DNA from: Lachnospiraceae bacterium
GTDB lineage: Bacteria > Bacillota > Clostridia > Lachnospirales > Lachnospiraceae
Assembly (NCBI GenBank): GCA_016281555.1
Contig: JAEEIV010000089.1
Location: 1-64,000, forward strand
Direction of reading: 5' to 3'
DNA: 64,000 bases
The notes beneath the pieces are model-generated. The model was not told the DNA's origin and did not search any database. It saw nothing but the letters and a program-made list of their open reading frames with translations. How positions within the stretch are numbered: position 1 is the first letter of the stretch; each line of letters starts with the position of its first letter. Below, piece by piece: positions 12,464 through 26,910 of the stretch. The position numbers and the translations under genes are program-made.

Positions 12464-14758
12464 ATGGCTGAGAATAAAAACAATGATGCGGTCGTGCAGG
12501 AAACGCTGGATTCCGAGATCCGGATCCCGAAGCCTGCGGATTACGTGCCGGCGGATGCCCTGTTTCAGAATCTGATGCGGGAAATACAGAAATACCATCC
12601 CTCCGACGACCTTTCCATCATTGAAAAAGCCTATCGGATGGCGGCGGAAGCGCACAAGGACCAGAAGCGGAAATCCGGCGAGCCTTACATCATTCATCCG
12701 CTCAATGTGGCGCTGATCCTGGCGGAACTCGAACTCGACAAGGAGACGATCATTGCCGGGCTGCTGCACGACGTCGTCGAGGATACGGAGCTGACGCTTG
12801 CGGACGTGGAACGGGAATTCGGCGGGGAAGTCGCAAACCTCGTCGAGGGCGTCACGAAGATTACGCAGATCGACTGGGGCATGGACAAGGAAGACATCGA
12901 GGCGGAGAACCTTCGGAAGATGTTCATGGCCATGGCGAAGGACATCCGGGTGATCCTGGTCAAACTCGCCGACCGGTTGCACAACATGCGCACCTACCAG
13001 TACTGGTCGCCGGAGACGCAGAAGCGGAAGGCCAAGGAGACGATGGATATCTTTTCTCCTGTCGCGGACCGCCTCGGTATCAGCAAGATCAAGATCGAGC
13101 TGGACGACCGGTCGCTCGCGATCCTGCATCCGGAGGTCGTGGAGGACCTGACGAAGAAACTGCAGAGCTCGCATGCGGACCGCGAGGTGTTCATTGCCGG
13201 GAAGAAGGCGGAGATCAGCGAGCGGCTCGAGAAAGAACACATCAAGGCGGACGTGTTCGGGCGGGCGAAACACCTCTTCAGTATTTACAAGAAGATGCTC
13301 CAGCAGAATAAGACGCTGGAGCAGGTATACGATATTTTCGCGATCCGCGTGCTCGTCGACGACGTCATTGACTGCTACGCGGCGCTCGGAATCGTGCATG
13401 AAATGTACAAGCCGCTGCCCGGCAGGTTCAAAGACTACATTGCCATGCCGAAACCGAATATGTACCAGTCGCTGCATACGACGGTCATCGGTTCCGACGG
13501 CGTGCCCTTTGAGATCCAGATCCGGACCTTCGAGATGCACCGCACTGCGGAATACGGCATCGCGGCGCACTGGAAATACAAGGAAAAAGGGTCGGTCGAG
13601 GCCGGGAAGAACGCGGAAGAGCAGAAACTGGCGTGGCTTCGTTCCATTATGGACTGGCAGACGACCGACAGCAAGGAATTCGTGAACCTCGTGAAGGAGG
13701 ACTTCGACCTCTTTTCCGGCTCGGTCTACTGCTTTACTCCGAACGGCGAAGTGAAGACCCTGCCCTCCGGTTCCTGCACGATCGACTTTGCCTATGCGAT
13801 CCACTCTGCGGTCGGAAACCGTATGGTCGGCGCGAAGGTGAACGGTCAGCTCGTTCCGATCGAATATGAAGTACAGAACGGCGACCGGATCGAGATCATG
13901 ACGAGCCAGAATTCGCGCGGCCCGTCCATGGACTGGCTGAAGATCGTGAAGAGCGCCCAGGCGAGAAACAAGATCAATCAGTGGTTCAAGGCGCAGAACA
14001 AGGAAGACAACATACAGCGCGGCAAGGACATGTTCGCCGCGTACTGCAAGGCGAAGAGCATCAACGTTTCGGAGGTCACGAAACCGAAATACATCGAAGC
14101 CTGTCTGTCGAAATACCGGTATCCTGACTGGGATTCCGTCATGGCGGCCATCGGCCGGGGCGGCTTGAAGGAAGGGCAGATCGTCAATAAGCTTCTCGAC
14201 GAGGAGAAGAAGGAGACGAAGGCAAATCTGACCGACGAGGACATCTTAAAGAGCATTGAGGAAAACGGCCACGTGCATGTCACGTCCTCGAAGAAAGGCC
14301 ACGGCATCGTCGTGGAAGGCCTGCAGGACCTTTCGGTCCGGTTCTCACATTGCTGCAATCCGGTCCCCGGAGACGAGATCGTCGGCTACATCACGCGCGG
14401 CCGCGGCATTTCGGTGCACCGCACGGACTGCCCGAACATCATGTCATTGCCGGACAATGAAAAGAACCGCATCATTCCGGCCGAGTGGTCCGAAGAAGCG
14501 GAGTCCGAAGGCGGCGGCAAGTACCTCACGCACATCAAGATCTTCTGCCAGAACCGGATCGGCCTGTTCGCCGACGTGTCCCGCGTCATGACGGAGAACA
14601 ACATCGACATCATGGCGGCGTCCTCCCGGACGAACAAACAGGGCAATGCCACGATCGAACTGACCTTTGAGGTCGGCGGCATCGACGAAGTGGAGCGCTT
14701 GACGGCGCGGCTTCGCCAGATTTCCGGCATCGTGGACATCGAAAGGAGCGCGGGCTGA
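12464..14758 (+). CDS. rel: Bifunctional (p)ppGpp synthetase/hydrolase
   Basis: HD motif LLHDVVEDTE, synthetase YQSLHTTVIG, TGS and C-terminal ACT domains. Confidence 0.96.
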   Translation: MAENKNNDAVVQETLDSEIRIPKPADYVPADALFQNLMREIQKYHPSDDLSIIEKAYRMAAEAHKDQKRKSGEPYIIHPLNVALILAELELDKETIIAGLLHDVVEDTELTLADVEREFGGEVANLVEGVTKITQIDWGMDKEDIEAENLRKMFMAMAKDIRVILVKLADRLHNMRTYQYWSPETQKRKAKETMDIFSPVADRLGISKIKIELDDRSLAILHPEVVEDLTKKLQSSHADREVFIAGKKAEISERLEKEHIKADVFGRAKHLFSIYKKMLQQNKTLEQVYDIFAIRVLVDDVIDCYAALGIVHEMYKPLPGRFKDYIAMPKPNMYQSLHTTVIGSDGVPFEIQIRTFEMHRTAEYGIAAHWKYKEKGSVEAGKNAEEQKLAWLRSIMDWQTTDSKEFVNLVKEDFDLFSGSVYCFTPNGEVKTLPSGSCTIDFAYAIHSAVGNRMVGAKVNGQLVPIEYEVQNGDRIEIMTSQNSRGPSMDWLKIVKSAQARNKINQWFKAQNKEDNIQRGKDMFAAYCKAKSINVSEVTKPKYIEACLSKYRYPDWDSVMAAIGRGGLKEGQIVNKLLDEEKKETKANLTDEDILKSIEENGHVHVTSSKKGHGIVVEGLQDLSVRFSHCCNPVPGDEIVGYITRGRGISVHRTDCPNIMSLPDNEKNRIIPAEWSEEAESEGGGKYLTHIKIFCQNRIGLFADVSRVMTENNIDIMAASSRTNKQGNATIELTFEVGGIDEVERLTARLRQISGIVDIERSAG

Positions 14759-17109: not shown

Positions 17110-18801
17110 ATGAAAAGAATTCTTGCGATACTGCTGTCAGTCATATTGCTGATGACGCTGTCTTCGTGCGGGCTCATTACCTCGCTCATCGGCAGCGGAT
17201 CGTCGGAGGCGGAGACGGATCCGGAGCCGGCGGTGAATACGGAGATCAATGCGAAGGAAGCGACAGGCGCTTTCTCGATCACTACGGAAGACGGCGCATT
17301 TACGGAAGACGGAAACGTCTATACTGTCACGGCGGCCGGGACCTACGTCCTTTCCGGCTATCTCGAAGGACAGGTCATTGTCGATTCCGGGGAAACGGGC
17401 GAGGTCGTGCTGGAACTCTCCGGTGTGACGATCACTTCCGGTGAAGATTCTCCGATCAAGATACTTTCGGCGTCCGACGTGGACGTTTCCGCGAAGAAAG
17501 ACACGGAGAATCTGATCAAGGACACGAGAAGCGCAAAGACCGCGGAAAACGACGATCAGGGAGAAGGTGCGATCTACGCGAAAACGGATCTGAAGATCAA
17601 GGGATCCGGGACATTGGTCGTGGAAGCGGGCTATAGCAACGGCATCCATACGACGAAAGACCTGACCATACAAAAAGTGACGCTGAAAGTCATTGCGAGG
17701 AATAATGCCCTGAAGGGCAATGATTCGATCACCGTGACGAGCGGAACGGTCGCGGCGATCTCCACGAACGGCGACGGCGTCAAGACGGAAAACACGGACG
17801 CGAACAAGAACGGCGTCACACGGGGAGACATTCTCCTCACCGGCGGCTCCGTCACGGTCTACGCTGCCGGAGACGGCTTCCAGTCCGCGCGCGATTTCGT
17901 GATGCAGGCGGGAGAAACCGAAACGCCGTCGGTCACGATCTACACGGGTTCTTACAGCGGTTATACGGCGTCCGACGCCTCCGTCACTTCCTATAAGGGC
18001 GTGAAGGTGCAGAATGAACTTTTGATCTCGGCAGGAGAGATCACGATCCAAAGCTTCGACGACGGCCTGCATGCGGATCAGGGCACCTCGCTCCTCGACG
18101 GCACGAAGGGCAAGGGAGACATTCTGATCTCGGGCGGAACCGTCACGATGAACGTATATGCGCCGGAGACCAAGACGGCCATGGGCCGCTCCGGCCCCGG
18201 CGGGTTCGGCGGTCCCGGGGGCTCGGGCCGACCTGGCAGTTCCGGCGGAGGGTTCCAGCCGCAGACGGTGGCCGGTGCGGACGCGATCCACGCCGACGGC
18301 GTTCTGACCGTATCCGGCGGAACGATCCGTATCGACAGCGCCTATGAAGGGATGGAAGCGAACGTGATCAACATTACCGGCGGAGAGACCGTGGTGGCCG
18401 CCAATGACGACGGCGTGAATGCATGCAAGGGCACTTCGACGCCTGCAGTGAACGTCACCGGCGGGCTTCTCGACGTCACGGTTTCTCCGAACGGAGATAC
18501 CGACGGCATCGACAGCAACGGCACCTATCTCCAGACCGGCGGGGTGGTCATTACCCGGGGACCGAGCAGCCAGATGGCGGCGGCGCTCGATGCCGACGGC
18601 TCGGTCACCGTTTCCGGCGGGACACTCATCGTACTGGGGTACGGCAGAGTTTCGACTTCCGGCGGCGTCCGGACGCAATCGCTCTCTCTGAATTCCCAGG
18701 GCAGCCACACGGTGAAGATCGACGGAACGACTTATTCGTTTACCAATGCATATTCTTACGGAACCACGACCTGCTACAGCGATCAGACGGTATCGCAATG
18801 A
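17110..18801 (+). CDS. Carbohydrate-binding domain-containing lipoprotein (Cthe_2159-like beta-helix)
   Basis: Lipobox TLSSC; VTAAGTYVLSGYLEGQVIVD, GEGAIYAKTDLKIKG, YSNGIHTTKDLTI and SDDGLHAD-type motifs; Gly/Pro-rich insert GPGGFGGPGGSGRPGSSGGG. Confidence 0.85.
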   Translation: MKRILAILLSVILLMTLSSCGLITSLIGSGSSEAETDPEPAVNTEINAKEATGAFSITTEDGAFTEDGNVYTVTAAGTYVLSGYLEGQVIVDSGETGEVVLELSGVTITSGEDSPIKILSASDVDVSAKKDTENLIKDTRSAKTAENDDQGEGAIYAKTDLKIKGSGTLVVEAGYSNGIHTTKDLTIQKVTLKVIARNNALKGNDSITVTSGTVAAISTNGDGVKTENTDANKNGVTRGDILLTGGSVTVYAAGDGFQSARDFVMQAGETETPSVTIYTGSYSGYTASDASVTSYKGVKVQNELLISAGEITIQSFDDGLHADQGTSLLDGTKGKGDILISGGTVTMNVYAPETKTAMGRSGPGGFGGPGGSGRPGSSGGGFQPQTVAGADAIHADGVLTVSGGTIRIDSAYEGMEANVINITGGETVVAANDDGVNACKGTSTPAVNVTGGLLDVTVSPNGDTDGIDSNGTYLQTGGVVITRGPSSQMAAALDADGSVTVSGGTLIVLGYGRVSTSGGVRTQSLSLNSQGSHTVKIDGTTYSFTNAYSYGTTTCYSDQTVSQ

Positions 18802-18826
18802 GCGGTCAAAGGGGAAAGGACCAATA

Positions 18827-19222
18827 ATGCGCATTCTGTTTGCCGCACCGGACAGGGATCTGATCGAGTGCTACCGGAAGATTTTTGAAACCGATTTCGG
18901 AGAAACCGTCACCGCCTTTGACGGCGCACAGGTGTTGATGCTGACGGCTTCCGAATCCTTCGACGTGGCCGTTTTGGACCGCAGTCTTCCGCGCATCAAG
19001 TACGGAAGAGTGCTGGAACGGGTGACGGCTCAGGGGATCCCGGTCATTGCCCTGGCATCCGCTTCTTCGGGCGGTGAAAATATGGCGCAGATGCCGGGAG
19101 AACGGGCGGTGCTGACGTATCCGTTCATGCCGGAAGAGATCATCGGAAAGATCCGCGTTATAGAAGGAAGTCCGGAACAGGCGGAAAACAGGGGAAAGGG
19201 AACAAACGGTGACGAAGCATGA
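18827..19222 (+). CDS. Degenerate stand-alone response-regulator receiver domain
   Basis: DVAVLDRSLP (Asp51) and VIALAS present; conserved KP Lys replaced (LTYPF), acidic pair altered (FAAPDRD); no output domain. Confidence 0.7.
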   Translation: MRILFAAPDRDLIECYRKIFETDFGETVTAFDGAQVLMLTASESFDVAVLDRSLPRIKYGRVLERVTAQGIPVIALASASSGGENMAQMPGERAVLTYPFMPEEIIGKIRVIEGSPEQAENRGKGTNGDEA

Positions 19223-20457
19223 ATAAGGCAGAGAAGAAATTCCGCTGGTACGCGATCCTTGTGATTTTTGTGCTGCTCACGGGCCTGCTCGTGATCATCA
19301 ACGGCGTGAACTTCACGATGGCCGCTCAGGATGCGGACAGGATCACTGAGCAGATCGCGGGCCGTCAGGGCTCGTTTGGCCGCATGGAAGACGGCGTCAA
19401 CGCACCCCCGGAAGGCGGGTTCAATGCGCCCCCGGAAGGCGGAAACAAGGACTTCCGATTCGGGCCGATGGGCCCGGACTCCCCGGAAATGCAGGAATCG
19501 ATCCGCTATTTCACGGTCTCGTTTTCCGAGAAAACCAAAGAAGCAAAGACCGTCGCCTATCAGATCTCTTCCGTCACGGAGGACGAGGCGAAGACCTGGG
19601 CAGAAAGCCTGCTAAAAGGGGAGACCGGGTGGACCCGGGGAACCTACCGCTACCGCGTGTATAAGTATCGGGGACAGAAGTACGTGACGGTCATTGACCA
19701 GGCGCGGGAACTGCTTCCTTCGTTCCGAATCCTGCTCATTTCCGCGATCGGCGAGGCGGTCGTTCTGCTCATCGGCTGGTTCGTATTGAAAGCCATCGGG
19801 AAAAAGATCTACGCGCCGATCCGTGAAGCGGAGCGGAAACAAAAGGCGTTTCTTACGGCGGCCAATCAGGAATTCCGCGTGCCGCTTACGGTCATCGGCG
19901 GGAACATGGAACTCATCGAGAGAAGATACGGGCCCGACGAGGAAACGCGGTCCACGAGGCGTCAGCTCGGCAAACTGGGCGATCTGGTGGATCAGCTCGA
20001 AACCTTCGGATTGAACGGGAAAGAAACGGCCCGGGCGGAGGAATGCCGAGTTTCGGAGATTTTCCGCTCGGAGCTTGGCCGTGCCTCGGCGGAGTTCGCT
20101 TCCCGCGGCATTACGTTGCAGCAGGAGATCGCACCGGACGTCACGCTTGCCGCGAATACGGAAGACGTCCGCGCGATGATCGGCGAACTCGTCGGCAATG
20201 CCCTGAAATACGCATTGACGACCGCTTCGTTTGCACTGAAAAAAGAAAACGGGCACGTGCTCATCGAGGCGGAAAACGACACGGATCTCCCGGACGGCTC
20301 CGTGGATCAGGTTTTCGACCGGTTCACGACGCTCGAAAACGCGGAGGGTTCGACCGGCCTTGGTTTATCGCGCGTGAAGGAGATCGTAAAGGCATTGAAC
20401 GGCCGCATTGCCGCGTCCGTTTCCGGCGGGAAGTTCCTCCTGACCGTGACGCTGTAA
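19219..20457 (+). CDS. Histidine kinase homologue with substituted H-box (His to Gln)
   Basis: Two TMs; NQEFRVPLTVI in place of SHEL(R/K)TPLTVI; N-box GELVGNALKYA; G2 GSTGLGLSRVKEIV. Confidence 0.85.
   Translation: MNKAEKKFRWYAILVIFVLLTGLLVIINGVNFTMAAQDADRITEQIAGRQGSFGRMEDGVNAPPEGGFNAPPEGGNKDFRFGPMGPDSPEMQESIRYFTVSFSEKTKEAKTVAYQISSVTEDEAKTWAESLLKGETGWTRGTYRYRVYKYRGQKYVTVIDQARELLPSFRILLISAIGEAVVLLIGWFVLKAIGKKIYAPIREAERKQKAFLTAANQEFRVPLTVIGGNMELIERRYGPDEETRSTRRQLGKLGDLVDQLETFGLNGKETARAEECRVSEIFRSELGRASAEFASRGITLQQEIAPDVTLAANTEDVRAMIGELVGNALKYALTTASFALKKENGHVLIEAENDTDLPDGSVDQVFDRFTTLENAEGSTGLGLSRVKEIVKALNGRIAASVSGGKFLLTVTL
19399..19446 (+). repeat. 24-bp tandem duplication encoding NAPPEGG(F/N)
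   Basis: aacgcacccccggaaggcgggttc / aatgcgcccccggaaggcggaaac. Confidence 0.8.
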
Positions 20458-20473
20458 AGACGGGGAAACGGCA

Positions 20474-21184
20474 ATGGCGATCACGGTCATGAAGCGGTAC
20501 GAACTAAAGTACCTCTTGAGCGCCGAACAGACGGCGTTTTTAACGGAGAAACTGAAAGGACATATGGAGGCGGATCAGTACGGGAAAACGTCGATCGCGT
20601 CCCTGTACTATGACACGCCGTCCTATCAGCTGATCCGCATGAGCGTGGAAAAACCGCCGTTCAAGGAAAAGATCAGGCTCAGATCTTACGGGATCGCCAC
20701 GGAGGGATCGCCGGTCTTCCTGGAACTGAAGCGGAAAGCGGACGGGATCGTCTATAAGCGGAGAGTCGAGACCACGATCCCGTTGGTGGAGAAATTCTTC
20801 GCCGGAGAAGGCGACATCTGCGCGGCCGGCCAGATCAACCGGGAGATCACGACGTTCAGGGATCATTATAAAACGCTGATCCCGGCTTGTCTCATCATTT
20901 ACGACCGTACGGCATTCTTCGAACCGGGCAGCGACCTGCGCCTCACGATCGATGAAAACCCGCGGTACCGGGTGGAGGACCTCACGCTCACCAAGTCGAT
21001 GGATGGGATCTCGCTCCTGGAACCGGGGAAAACGATTCTGGAGATCAAGGTGCAGGATGCCATGCCATTGTGGCTGACGAAGATCCTCTCGGAGGGGAAA
21101 ATCTACAAGGGAAGTTTTTCAAAGTACGGCGAAGCCTTCCGGCAGCAGCTCATGAAAGCGGAAGGGATAGAAGTTCAACGGTAA
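20474..21184 (+). CDS. VTC-domain polyphosphate polymerase
   Basis: RYELKYLL, SLYYDTP, KEKIRLRSYG, VFLELKRK, YKRR and ILEIKVQDAMPLWL motifs. Confidence 0.9.
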   Translation: MAITVMKRYELKYLLSAEQTAFLTEKLKGHMEADQYGKTSIASLYYDTPSYQLIRMSVEKPPFKEKIRLRSYGIATEGSPVFLELKRKADGIVYKRRVETTIPLVEKFFAGEGDICAAGQINREITTFRDHYKTLIPACLIIYDRTAFFEPGSDLRLTIDENPRYRVEDLTLTKSMDGISLLEPGKTILEIKVQDAMPLWLTKILSEGKIYKGSFSKYGEAFRQQLMKAEGIEVQR

Positions 21185-21199
21185 AGAGGAGGGTTCATT

Positions 21200-21871
21200 A
21201 TGTTTGATTCCATTTATTCCGGCGTCGTGACTCCGTCACAGTTTTTCATCATGGCGGCCGTGGCATTGGGGACCGGGTTCCTGTATTCCTGGATCATGAG
21301 TTTCCGCGTCCGCGCCACGAAGCGGTTCTTCGTCGTGACTTCGCTGATCCCGTTCGTCGTTGCGTCGGTGATCACCTTCGTGAACGGCAACATCGGCGCG
21401 GGCGTGGCGATCGGCGGCGCCTTCACCCTCATCCGGTTCCGGAGCGCGCAGGGGAGCGCAGACGAGATCGCATCGCTTCTGGTGGCCATGGGGTCCGGCA
21501 TAGCGTTCGGCATGGGCTACCTCGGCTACGGCGTCGTGATCCTTCTGGCGTTGGGCGTCCTGTTCCTCATCCTCAGCTTCATTCCGCTGTTCGAACATAA
21601 AAAGATGGCCGCGGATCAGCTGCTTCGGATCACGATCCCCGAGTCGCTGGAATACAACGGCACATTCGACGAGATCTTCGCCCATTATTTGAAAAAAGTC
21701 GAGAGCGCAGGCGTGAAGACCACGGGCATGGGCAGCATGTTCCGGCTGTCGTATAAAGTCCAGATGAAGGATCCTGCGGAAGAAAAAGCGTTCATTGACG
21801 AACTCCGCACGAAAAACGGGAATCTGGAGGTGGCGCTTCTGCCGTATACGGAAGAGCAGAATCAACTGTGA
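21200..21871 (+). CDS. DUF4956 domain-containing membrane protein
   Basis: N-terminal TMs with GAGVAIGGAFTLIRFRSAQGSADEI; follows the VTC gene. Confidence 0.88.
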   Translation: MFDSIYSGVVTPSQFFIMAAVALGTGFLYSWIMSFRVRATKRFFVVTSLIPFVVASVITFVNGNIGAGVAIGGAFTLIRFRSAQGSADEIASLLVAMGSGIAFGMGYLGYGVVILLALGVLFLILSFIPLFEHKKMAADQLLRITIPESLEYNGTFDEIFAHYLKKVESAGVKTTGMGSMFRLSYKVQMKDPAEEKAFIDELRTKNGNLEVALLPYTEEQNQL

Positions 21872-21888: not shown

Positions 21889-21930
21889 TGAAAAAGCCGG
21901 GGTTTGCTGCCCCGGCTTTTCTTGATTTTT
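21889..21930. terminator. Bidirectional terminator between DUF4956 gene and tRNA-Gln
   Basis: AAAAGCCGGGG...CCCCGGCTTTT with T-rich flank on + and A/T-rich flank on the other side. Confidence 0.85.
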
Positions 21931-22121: not shown

Positions 22122-22188
22122 TATATTGGATTGTTAGATGGGGAAAGATCCCGTTTTGCAAATTCTTTTCCGTGAAAGAGGAGAGATC

Positions 22189-25100
22189 ATGAAAAGAGGA
22201 TTCTTTATTGCAGCGGCGTTACTCGTGATCTTCGGCTTTACGGCGGTGCCGAACCGCGTGCATGCCGAACCTGCCGCGGTCAATGCGTCTTCGGGCGTGT
22301 CGCTCAGCGATCTGGCGAATCAGGGCTTGATCAAGCTTCGCGGACGGACCGTCGTGAAGAACGGCTATCTCGACGCGCATTTTTCCGGGACCGGCTTTGA
22401 GTTCCAGGCGACCGTGGCGAGCGCGACGCAGATCACGCTGACCTACGAGTCGTCGAACCACAGCAAGATCGGGTTCATCATTGACGGCGATGAGACCGTG
22501 GTGCTGAATCGGACGACCGGTACGAACCAGACAGCGAAGGCCACGATCCCGGCGGGCACGCATGAGGTGATCGTCTTAAAGGAAAGCCAGATCTCGAGCG
22601 GCGCGACGAGCACGTTCAAGATGAAGACGATCCAGTTCAACGGCACCGTGGACAAGAAACTCGACGACCGGGATATTTATTTTGAGGTGATCGGCGACTC
22701 TTATTCCTGCGGCGACGGCGCGGTCGGCAAGTACGCGATCGGCAAGGCGTGGACGAGCCCGGACGACGACGCGGTGACGTCTTCGTTCGGCCATTATCTG
22801 GCCACGATGCTCGGCGCGGATTATTCCGTGGTCGGACGCGGCGGCATCGGTCTCGACGGCACGAACATGCAGGAATCGGGCAGCAATACGGTGACGATGC
22901 CGATGCTCTACAAGTATGCGAGTTATGCGGACCGGGCGAACGGCGTGCAGTACGATTTCCAGTCGGCCCGCGTTCCGGATTTCGTGGTCATTGAAATCGG
23001 CGCGAACGACTCGAATTCCTCGGCCAATGCGGCGTCATGGACCGGCTACGCGAAGAATCTTATTCTGCAGGTCAAGGAAGTTTACGGCGACGTCCCGATC
23101 ATCTGGGAATTCACCGGCAGCAAGTCCTGGCTCTTCACGGGTCTTCGGAACCTCGCGAAAACCGATGCGCAGCTTTCCGTTTATGACAACCTCTATTTCC
23201 ACACGAACTACTTCAACCGGAACGGTTCGGCCGCATTGAAGTCGCAGTCGGGCGGTCATCCGGACAGTGGAGACCAGTACGCTTTTGCGGAGCGTCTTTA
23301 CAATTTCATTGACACGGACACCTTCATTCTGGAAGCGCCGGAAGACCCGAAGACGGAGATCGTGTATTACGTTTCCGAAACCGGCAATGACAACAACGAC
23401 GGTCTGACACCGGAAACGGCATTGAAGACCTGTCCTGCGGTATTGAATAGATTCACGGACAAAACGGGTTCTCCCGCGGATGCGGAACTCGTGATCAAAG
23501 TCACCGGGACGGTGGTCGGCTCTGCCACGCAGGGGTTCATGAATTTTAATGCGGCCAGCCGCTATTACCGTGTGGACGGCACGCCGCTTCCGGTCGTCAT
23601 CGAAACCTATCAGTACGACGGCACGAACCGGGCCACGATAAAGCAGAACTCCAAACCTTCAAACGGCGGTTCGGCGCATATGGACGTCACACAGCCGTTC
23701 ACGTTCCGGAACGTGAAGATCTGGTGCGCGAAGGGCACGAGTTCGAGTTATCCTTATTCGATCAACAACCTGCATGCTTCAGGCAACCGACTGGTGCTGG
23801 ACAACGTCATTGCCCAAAGAGAAGAAGGCGGCACGCTGAACTTAAGCGCTGCGGGACAGTTCCGCCGCACCTATCTGGAAGGGGCGATCGCCGGCACGGA
23901 GGAAGTACTTTCCGAAGTGGTGCTTTTGAACGGCACGTACGACAGCACGACCGGGTTCGGCTACATTGCCGCCAACCCCGCCGGCAATTTGTGGGCAAGC
24001 GGCAACTCTGCATATTCCGCTCCCGGCATGACCTGTAAAATCACGGTCGGCAAGGGCGCGATCGCGAAAAACGTGAACGCGGTCAGAGGCTCGTTCGCCC
24101 CGAAGGAAGCCGTCGTGGAACTCACGACCGGCGGCGTGATCGAAGGCTCTTATGCGGGCTCGCCGAACTCTTCCGCCACCGACACGAGAAATACCTACAA
24201 TACCGACGTTCATTTCATCCTTTCCGGCGGAAAGGTGCACGGCTATTTCTGGATGCTCGGCCGGAACGCGACCGTGAACGGCGACGTCATCTTTGAAATG
24301 ACCGGCGGCGAGATCCACGTGCCTCCGTTTACCAATACAGACGGCAGCATCATTGCGCTCGGTGCCGGATGGTCGGGCGGAATCGTGACCGGCGACGTCT
24401 TCAATGACATTTCGGGCGGTCTGTTCCTCCTGGAAGGCGGTAATTATCAGACCTCCCCCTTCTTCGCAGGATACTCGAACGTGAAGATCCAGGGCAGCGT
24501 GTATAACACGATCTCAGCCGGCACTTTCATGGTCATTCAGGGAGAAGGCTATAGCTCGCCTGCGAATTCCGGCTTGTATCTCGGAATGATGAGCGGCTGC
24601 ATTCAAACGGAACTCGTCAATGAAATCAAGGGCGGCCTCTTCGATCAGGCGCGGCTCGGAGACACCTACTATTTCGGCGGTCAGAGCGTTTCCTTTGCGA
24701 TCCGGGCCATCAGGTCCACCATCGGCGAGGAAGCCGGGAACGGCCGGAACGTCGGGCCGGTATTCCTGAGCAAAGGCGTCAGTTTCGCTGCCGGCTGGGG
24801 ACAGTTCGGCGTTTCCACCTATACTTCAGGCGCGGCCCCGGCGAATCAGGCCTGCTCGGATGAGGTGGTCGTCAGCACGCTGGTCCTCGGCGGTCAGTTC
24901 GACGGCAGCGTGTTCTGCACGCCGACCGGCGCTGCCAATACTACGAACGGTTATTGGCCGCGGACGATCGGCAGCGAAGTGGTCGACATTGAGAACGGCG
25001 ATTTCCTCGGAACCACGTATCTGGCCTCCAACAACGGGGACGTTTACGGTCACGTTCTGGTCACCGTAAACGGCGGCCGGTTCAAAGGGGTTTACGGAAC

Positions 25101-26910
25101 CGCCTGGAACGCTACCGGCGTGATCCACGACGGTCTGGAGATCCACATCAACGACTTCAACGACTTCGGCGCGCTCTATTCGAGTACGACAGCGACGGAG
25201 CCGTACTGCATGAGCAACAACTTCGCATTCTGGGCGGTCCATAACGGCACCGTGAAAGCAACGACTCCGGGAAGAACGGCTTTCACGTTCGACATCTCGG
25301 GCGGCACATTCCTTCGGACCGTGAACGTTGCATCGAACGGCGGCACGGTCGTCGGCGACGTCTCGATCAATATCAACGACGGCTATTTCAAGACGGTGAC
25401 CGGCAATACGCTGGCGAAGAATTACATCAACGGCGGCTGCTTCGTGAACGAGCCCGCCGCAGACCTGATCGAGGAAGGGTACAAGGCAGCGGCGGAAGAG
25501 AACACCAATGCGTATCCTTTCGCGAGCACCTACGACCCGATGCAGTATCATTACATCGTTCGCGAGAAACTGAACTGCATTATCGAGGTGGCGTCCGAAA
25601 CCACGGAAGGCGGCGTCGTGACGGCGATCGCTCCGCTTTCGGGCGGCGGCACGTATCTTGAAGACTCACCGGTGACGCTGACCGCGACGGAAGTGCCGGG
25701 CTATCTCTTCAAGGGCTGGTACCTCTCCGGCGCGCAGGCTTCTCCGAGATTCCGCTATGAAACCGCGGCGGTGTCGGATGCAACGTACGTTGCGAAGTAC
25801 GAGGTCCGCTCGGCCGGATTCGAGATCACGGTCGACGCAGCGGAATACGAGTTCGTGAACGACGGCGTCGCGTCTTCGGAGACGGGCAGAAATACCTTCA
25901 CGGTACAGCCGGGTGATCCTTTCGAGATCCGCTATGCCGAAACGGACTTTGACGGCTGGATCAATGCCTCCGGCAAACTGTTCAGCAGAGAGAATCCGTA
26001 CGCCGGCACGGCTTCGAACGACATGGAATTCAAACTGCAGACGAAGGGCTCGACCGAGGCCCCGACAGTCATCTTCTACACGGCCTATAATCAGGTATTG
26101 CAGACTGTGAAGGCGGCGGACCTGACGGCACTTCCCGCCGTTCCGGTCGTGATCGATAAGATCAATCCGGGTTCGTGGAGTCTGACGCTTTCCGAGATCC
26201 AGACGAAGGCAGCGAACGGTACGCCGCTCATCCCTGTCGTCGCGACGTATCTCAGCAAAGAGGAATACTACGTCGTCACGGTCAAGTCCGTCATCAAGGG
26301 AACGGATGCTTCGCCGGCGGCTTATGATCCCGCAGTCGTGAACTCCGTGCCGGTCGCAGACCGGACGACGGAACCGACCGCGATCTCCGAAGCGGTGGAG
26401 ATCACGCCCGAAGAGATCAGCGGCTCTGTCTTCCAGTATTTCGCTGCGGCGGACGGAACGATCCTGTCTTACGATACTTTGAAACTTCGTCTGAAGGCAG
26501 ATATGACGATCTACGCGGTGTATGACGGCGTGCCCGCGACCCCGTTGCCGACCGTCTCGATGGTCACGGCGATGCATTCGGGCAGCACGATCTATTTCGA
26601 AGCGGCGAGATCGCTTCCGGATACGGCGACGGTCGTCGAGCAGGGCATTCTCTTCACGACGAAGGATCTGATGGGCAATGCCTCCATGACCGATGGGGAA
26701 GCCCTCATCGCGGCGGAGAACGCATTGGTCGTGCAGGGGACCCTGCGATACCAGTACGCGTCGAGCGGCAAACAGAACGTCGACGTGACCGGTCTTACCC
26801 TGAAGAACGTCAGCGGCTTGACCGTCTACGCGAGAGGCTACGTCATCTACAGGATGAACGGGGAAGAGGGCATCCTGCTTTCCGACGTCGTGAGCGAGAC
26901 CGCAGAATAA
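22189..26910 (+). CDS. Large secreted multidomain protein: CE2-like N-domain + SGNH hydrolase, beta-helix region, InlB-type repeat
   Basis: Signal peptide; FEVIGDSYSCGDG, VIEIGANDSN and GGHPDSGDQ SGNH blocks; repeated GDV..(D/E)(I/M)SGG(x)F units; GYLFKGWYLSG repeat. Confidence 0.75.
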   Translation: MKRGFFIAAALLVIFGFTAVPNRVHAEPAAVNASSGVSLSDLANQGLIKLRGRTVVKNGYLDAHFSGTGFEFQATVASATQITLTYESSNHSKIGFIIDGDETVVLNRTTGTNQTAKATIPAGTHEVIVLKESQISSGATSTFKMKTIQFNGTVDKKLDDRDIYFEVIGDSYSCGDGAVGKYAIGKAWTSPDDDAVTSSFGHYLATMLGADYSVVGRGGIGLDGTNMQESGSNTVTMPMLYKYASYADRANGVQYDFQSARVPDFVVIEIGANDSNSSANAASWTGYAKNLILQVKEVYGDVPIIWEFTGSKSWLFTGLRNLAKTDAQLSVYDNLYFHTNYFNRNGSAALKSQSGGHPDSGDQYAFAERLYNFIDTDTFILEAPEDPKTEIVYYVSETGNDNNDGLTPETALKTCPAVLNRFTDKTGSPADAELVIKVTGTVVGSATQGFMNFNAASRYYRVDGTPLPVVIETYQYDGTNRATIKQNSKPSNGGSAHMDVTQPFTFRNVKIWCAKGTSSSYPYSINNLHASGNRLVLDNVIAQREEGGTLNLSAAGQFRRTYLEGAIAGTEEVLSEVVLLNGTYDSTTGFGYIAANPAGNLWASGNSAYSAPGMTCKITVGKGAIAKNVNAVRGSFAPKEAVVELTTGGVIEGSYAGSPNSSATDTRNTYNTDVHFILSGGKVHGYFWMLGRNATVNGDVIFEMTGGEIHVPPFTNTDGSIIALGAGWSGGIVTGDVFNDISGGLFLLEGGNYQTSPFFAGYSNVKIQGSVYNTISAGTFMVIQGEGYSSPANSGLYLGMMSGCIQTELVNEIKGGLFDQARLGDTYYFGGQSVSFAIRAIRSTIGEEAGNGRNVGPVFLSKGVSFAAGWGQFGVSTYTSGAAPANQACSDEVVVSTLVLGGQFDGSVFCTPTGAANTTNGYWPRTIGSEVVDIENGDFLGTTYLASNNGDVYGHVLVTVNGGRFKGVYGTAWNATGVIHDGLEIHINDFNDFGALYSSTTATEPYCMSNNFAFWAVHNGTVKATTPGRTAFTFDISGGTFLRTVNVASNGGTVVGDVSININDGYFKTVTGNTLAKNYINGGCFVNEPAADLIEEGYKAAAEENTNAYPFASTYDPMQYHYIVREKLNCIIEVASETTEGGVVTAIAPLSGGGTYLEDSPVTLTATEVPGYLFKGWYLSGAQASPRFRYETAAVSDATYVAKYEVRSAGFEITVDAAEYEFVNDGVASSETGRNTFTVQPGDPFEIRYAETDFDGWINASGKLFSRENPYAGTASNDMEFKLQTKGSTEAPTVIFYTAYNQVLQTVKAADLTALPAVPVVIDKINPGSWSLTLSEIQTKAANGTPLIPVVATYLSKEEYYVVTVKSVIKGTDASPAAYDPAVVNSVPVADRTTEPTAISEAVEITPEEISGSVFQYFAAADGTILSYDTLKLRLKADMTIYAVYDGVPATPLPTVSMVTAMHSGSTIYFEAARSLPDTATVVEQGILFTTKDLMGNASMTDGEALIAAENALVVQGTLRYQYASSGKQNVDVTGLTLKNVSGLTVYARGYVIYRMNGEEGILLSDVVSETAE

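Follow-up and report, generated by a model that had tools for sequence, protein, structure and literature searches.

Can a receiver and a histidine kinase-like protein that have both lost their phosphotransfer residues still work as a signalling pair, or are they merely a relic? The question is raised by a tight run of same-strand genes on contig C21 of a 2.26-Mb assembly (94% complete), of which 64,000 nt were analysed (the window). Five genes followed by a terminator-like hairpin make up the run:

17110..18801, + strand: Cthe_2159-type carbohydrate-binding protein, predicted lipoprotein (lipobox LSSC); Pfam PF14262, E 4e-69, start and lipobox from the sequence
18827..19222, + strand: pseudo-receiver, 131 aa; Pfam PF00072, E 3e-5, below cutoff
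19219..20457, + strand: pseudo-histidine kinase, 412 aa; Pfam HATPase_c, E 3e-10, above cutoff, HisKA below cutoff
19867..19869, + strand: CAG codon (Gln217) at the phospho-acceptor His position of the kinase, from the sequence
20474..21184, + strand: VTC-domain protein, probable polyphosphate polymerase; Pfam PF09359, E 4e-39
21200..21871, + strand: DUF4956 membrane protein, perhaps distantly MgtC-like, with a putative C-terminal ACT-like domain; Pfam PF16316, E 6e-9
21892..21920, + strand: terminator-like hairpin closing the operon, 12 pairs then T-rich, from a consensus scan; by itself no evidence of function

The receiver and kinase ORFs overlap by 4 nt (ATGA). The coordinates and residues that the original prediction had given for both ORFs, including the CAG codon, were borne out on re-reading the sequence, and gene order and Pfam matches confirm that the pair sits between a Cthe_2159-like protein and the VTC and DUF4956 proteins. 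Beyond the hairpin, window positions 22138-26910 encode a protein of 1590 aa that looks secreted, has GDSL lipase/CE2-like domains together with divergent InlB repeats, and may be an esterase acting on surface carbohydrate.

A family scan of one genome per species, searched with an alignment of the window kinase and those of G013, G001 and G077, yielded 80 loci, nearly all from metagenome-assembled Clostridia and, by record titles, mostly from the rumen or other ruminant gut. Counts given here rest on 81 kinases, 76 paired receivers and 66 canonical relatives. The order receiver, kinase, VTC, DUF4956 is kept in nearly all orthologous loci, with full-length open frames, and extends to a genome of another order (G685, same cluster, Lys at the His site); in clade A loci the Cthe_2159-type gene also belongs to the cassette. 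The family is rare: at E 1e-50 it was found in 3 of 392 genomes sampled from the order and 2 of 391 from the class, both figures including the window's genome, and a plasmid collection contained no pseudo-kinase at E 1e-30.

The kinase-like protein consists of a transmembrane helix, an extracytoplasmic sensor (about residues 37-168), a second transmembrane helix, a DHp region and a CA domain. Sub-threshold CBM_11 matches occur in the sensor region of some orthologues (L104, L109 and L150). The HisKA match of the window protein scores 21.1 bits against a Pfam cutoff of 26.9; Gln217 occupies the phospho-acceptor position and Val221 that of the phosphatase Thr. The original prediction was thus right that the phospho-accepting His is replaced by Gln (codon 217 is CAG), but its stress on a His-to-Gln change was misplaced, since the site varies freely among the 81 orthologues (K28, N17, R10, S10, Q7, T4, H3, M1, G1; Arg in same-genus G013, Lys in same-genus G001 and Gln in same-family G077). 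A conserved functional Gln was rejected because nine residues occur there: Gln is not special, and the acceptor position is unconstrained. The acceptor His is found in 3 of 81 orthologues versus 66 of 66 canonical relatives. Absent from the original prediction and added here is the loss of the Thr of the H-E-x-x-T motif, which is invariant in all 66 canonical relatives and retained in two of 81 pseudo-kinases; the other 79 have V, L, M or I (77) or Ala (2). In HisKA proteins, Thr or Asn at this position is required for phosphatase activity and the acidic residue for kinase activity (Willett and Kirby, PMC3510030). With the Thr of ExxT gone, a phosphatase-only kinase is unlikely. The adjoining P222 is present in 81 of 81 pseudo-kinases.

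The CA domain has a different history. N327 of the N-box, G380 and G382 of G2, F366 and D367 are invariant in all 81 pseudo-kinases, so the persistence of N-box and G2 motifs noted originally holds throughout, whereas the ATP lid has lost the Tyr-Arg-x-Asp-x-x-Arg of active relatives and has usually been shortened by two or three residues. Three newly acquired residues, L372, N374 and E323, are fixed or nearly so. Of the features of a functional HisKA kinase, the N-box Asn and G2 glycines are therefore present, and the acceptor His and phosphatase Thr/Asn absent. Given the loss of acceptor, Thr and lid residues, the pseudo-kinases should be unable to autophosphorylate, to transfer phosphate or to act as phosphatases; nucleotide binding is probably kept, judging from the intact N-box and G2, and catalysis by this domain is improbable with such a lid. 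An AlphaFold2 model (mean pLDDT 83) comprises two long helices, a small alpha/beta sensor, the DHp region and a confident CA domain, and Foldseek matches it to CpxA, with and without ATP, and, lower, to DivL, which is the best PDB match by sequence. The protein thus falls into the DivL-like class of pseudo-histidine kinases: model and structural matches indicate that the kinase fold is kept, and the family is conserved without the acceptor His.

The window receiver is equally altered, with A7-P8 in place of the acidic pair, A77 for Thr/Ser, Y98 for Lys and no output domain, although D51 remains; its Response_reg match scores 24.8 bits against a Pfam cutoff of 30.2. These residues agree with the original reading of the window (Asp51 kept, Lys lost, acidic pair changed to Ala-Pro). 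Across the 76 paired receivers, the Lys position holds Y29, F24, L21 or M2, always followed by Pro-Phe and never Lys; Asp51 is present in 41 and lost in most of the remaining 35 (one unreadable), and in no case are all five active-site residues found together. By comparison, His is missing from 0.9% of HisKA domains and Asp from 2.0% of receivers (PMC12632262). Set against these published rates, loss in this family, with 78 of 81 orthologues lacking His and 76 of 76 lacking Lys, is far above chance.

The original prediction had proposed checking homologous clusters for retention of His and Lys and named intact residues in most relatives as the contrary outcome. The check gave 3 of 81 for His and 0 of 76 for Lys, and never His together with Asp in one pair; the contrary outcome did not appear among the orthologues, and the loci scanned yielded none that is linked to this VTC subfamily and has both His and Lys intact. 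The receivers of the three His-bearing orthologues (L126, L142 and L151) all lack Asp, L126 is closely related to L142, and L151 is nested in the pseudo clade, so their His is probably secondary.

The neighbouring enzyme provides a candidate target. The VTC profile matches Vtc4 structures (E 6e-13) with basic tunnel-type residues aligned; R68, R70, K86, R145, R156 and E190 are invariant in 12 relatives, and R68-R70, K86, R145 and R156 lie in stretches aligned with Vtc4, which upholds the earlier reading of an apparently intact active site. The protein is therefore a probable polyphosphate polymerase. A search of the 94%-complete genome (G000) for PPK1 and Ppx-GppA found neither, and one VTC gene is present, which makes VTC, of the VTC and PPK1 types covered, the only candidate polyphosphate polymerase found. 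DUF4956 relatives match MgtC (PF02308) weakly in 5 of 28 cases (best E 3e-4), and the DUF4956 model shows five long helices and then an alpha/beta domain; a Foldseek search with the DUF4956 fold returned nothing significant. Published analysis has assigned MgtC and ACT domains to the Streptococcus intermedius homologue (PMC12345266). Known ligands of Cthe_2159 proteins are cellulose and polygalacturonic acid (PMC6712302), a property that would suit life in the rumen. Outside Pel loci, VTC-DUF4956 forms a widespread core, in most cases accompanied by Cthe_2159 (40 loci of the class, L188-L227); the published claim of CotH-VTC-DUF4956 synteny confined to Pel loci does not cover VTC-DUF4956 alone. 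Several loci have VTC-DUF4956 without a linked kinase, among them L238 (G010) of the same genus, in which a 66%-identical VTC of the same subfamily and the same DUF4956 type have no adjoining pseudo-pair; the pair is thus not essential to VTC.

The reading that we favour, to which we give roughly an even chance, is that a real OmpR-type pair was converted once into a contact-based, nucleotide-binding complex that does not phosphorylate and acts on VTC/DUF4956, the target being suggested by gene order. The sensor domain would read an extracytoplasmic cue, and the CA domain would bind ATP or another nucleotide without spending it; cue and bound nucleotide together would set the DHp/CA conformation, which would be relayed by direct contact with a receiver that is never phosphorylated, with the MgtC-like DUF4956 protein or with both, switching VTC polyphosphate synthesis or a linked surface function on or off. 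Besides the Mg-ATP-binding Asn and glycines, the DHp region and extracytoplasmic sensor are kept under purifying selection. Counting against nucleotide binding, DivL, the best-studied analogue, binds ATP weakly. Of the originally proposed non-phosphorelay module controlling polyphosphate or surface function, the first half is well supported by the His and Lys counts, and what supports the link to VTC/DUF4956 is the recurring gene order. A fuller version, in which both halves make up an allosteric complex that reads nucleotide and, via VTC and the MgtC-like DUF4956 protein, gates the synthesis of polyphosphate on an extracytoplasmic signal, perhaps during plant cell wall attachment, in a horizontally mobile pair, is offered tentatively and may well be wrong.

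Output through DNA is the first alternative to be weighed. Although the original description of a receiver without output domain fits the window, most orthologous receivers (55 of 76) are longer and carry a tail that can be aligned to the winged helix of OmpR (hhalign probability 98, E 1e-12). The pseudo-receiver might then control its own operon independently of phosphorylation, modulated by the pseudo-kinase, and such control may be ancestral, since 15 of the 40 other VTC-DUF4956 loci of the class have in their neighbourhood a canonical OmpR-type regulator and a His-intact kinase, in some cases ordered as in the cassette (L191, L204). However, the window receiver is tail-less, and the other tails are some 20 residues short around the turn of the winged helix and are not recognised by Pfam as DNA-binding, so we consider this explanation unlikely. 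Loss of the output domain in the window and its shrinkage elsewhere point to protein-protein rather than transcriptional output. Canonical pairs also occur near VTC-DUF4956 in same-genus loci L240, L241 and L243; together with the 15 loci of the class, this indicates that a canonical pair in this position is common and that the window lineage has a dead pair there. A FastTree phylogeny places the pseudo-kinases in a single clade (support 1.0), which arises by a long stem from among the canonical kinases of Clostridia. Direct descent from a canonical VTC-linked pair is plausible; the tree does not show such descent.

Many clade-A loci (L075, L076, L081, L092 and others), whose cassettes are the most like that of the window, carry a canonical regulator-kinase pair just upstream of Cthe_2159, at about 3.6-5.8 kb in these loci, so that an active pair adjoins a dead one. 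The tree does not make the two pairs nearest relatives of one another, and it does not support duplication of the upstream pair as the origin. These upstream pairs do favour a second alternative, in which the pseudo-kinase binds the phosphorylated regulator, or pairs with the active kinase, of another two-component system in reversed signalling or sequestration, as does DivL, its best sequence match among solved structures, in Caulobacter (PMC4211667). Yet no canonical pair adjoins the window cassette, the receiver encoded with the pseudo-kinase is a pseudo-protein too, and transfer of the cassette among distant genomes would bring it together with differing foreign partners; the chance that this applies appears small.

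It is very unlikely that the protein is a kinase after all, its CA domain phosphorylating another residue or protein as other GHKL-family kinases do: the acidic residue beside the His site persists in most orthologues (63 E and 11 D of 81), as do the N-box and G2 glycines, but the Tyr-Arg-x-Asp...Arg set of the lid is gone and the surroundings of the His site offer no conserved acceptor.

Finally, pairwise dN/dS of the kinase is about 0.06-0.30 where dS is estimable. Receiver values lie for the most part at 0.1-0.3, apart from a single 0.6 in a comparison with hardly any synonymous changes, and values for VTC and DUF4956 are mostly lower; the stretches compared run stop to stop, and a few non-coding codons dilute the values. 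Identities conflict with genome relationships. A Rel-type protein encoded nearby (12464-14758) shares 72-75% identity with that of same-genus genomes versus 40-44% with that of the distant genomes of L075, L076, L077, L086 and L088, whereas identity to these distant genomes exceeds that to same-genus copies for Cthe_2159 (64-68% versus 39%), the kinase (59-63% versus 44-48%), VTC (80-83% versus about 74%) and DUF4956 (85-88% versus 74%, one full-length case). This conflict indicates that the five-gene cassette (17110-21871) was transferred horizontally as a unit and remained whole, an argument that its function is self-contained. Distances of the receiver and of the kinase vary together more than VTC and DUF4956 account for (partial r 0.59), a suggestive signal, though confounded by shared ancestry. 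That the pair has lost its function, is on the way out and is kept only by linkage to useful neighbours is scarcely credible, and recent decay is rejected: the receiver is the fastest-changing cassette gene (mean distance 0.60 versus 0.24 for VTC) and in the window lacks its tail, but full-length frames, invariant CA residues, newly fixed residues, purifying selection and survival through horizontal transfer all speak against it. Comparative sequence evidence thus lends good support to a pseudo-two-component pair that is conserved and works without a phosphorelay.

Pseudo-receivers and pseudo-histidine kinases have each been described singly; here, a cognate pair with both members inactive occurs in about 80 genomes, inherited with a probable output enzyme, and no paper on such a pair was found in the open-access library searched. 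The pair is a candidate regulator of VTC-type polyphosphate synthesis in bacteria and a natural experiment in phosphorylation-free two-component signalling, for which the canonical VTC-linked pairs of related bacteria serve as controls.

Among known systems, Gram-positive Pel loci (CotH-polyphosphate polymerase-DUF4956) likewise place a VTC-type polymerase beside DUF4956, and deletion of DUF4956 or CotH changes Pel amount and aggregation (PMC7112168, PMC12345266); in the S. intermedius locus the DUF4956-like gene alters both, whereas no such effect is reported for the VTC-type deletion (PMC12345266). No pseudo-two-component pair has been reported from Pel loci, however, and neither Pel genes nor CotH were seen in the window cluster. 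Physical precedent for contact between DUF4956 and the pseudo-kinase comes from Salmonella, where MgtC binds the CA domain of PhoR (PMC6658541), although PhoR is an active kinase and DUF4956 only distantly MgtC-like. Bacterial pseudo-receivers and atypical response regulators such as CmrT of C. difficile share the receiver fold without active-site residues, and a 2025 review calls their mechanism a mystery (PMC12632262); most of those studied are orphans or lie beside an active kinase, whereas here the cognate kinase is also dead. The nearest studied analogue of the window pseudo-kinase is DivL of Caulobacter, a HisKA-CA protein that has the kinase fold with its acceptor His replaced and works without kinase (PMC4211667) or phosphatase activity. 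By contrast, DivL has a nearly fixed Tyr and PAS sensors and reads a phosphorylated partner, DivK, whereas the window kinase combines a variable site and an extracytoplasmic sensor with a co-encoded receiver that is itself inactive.
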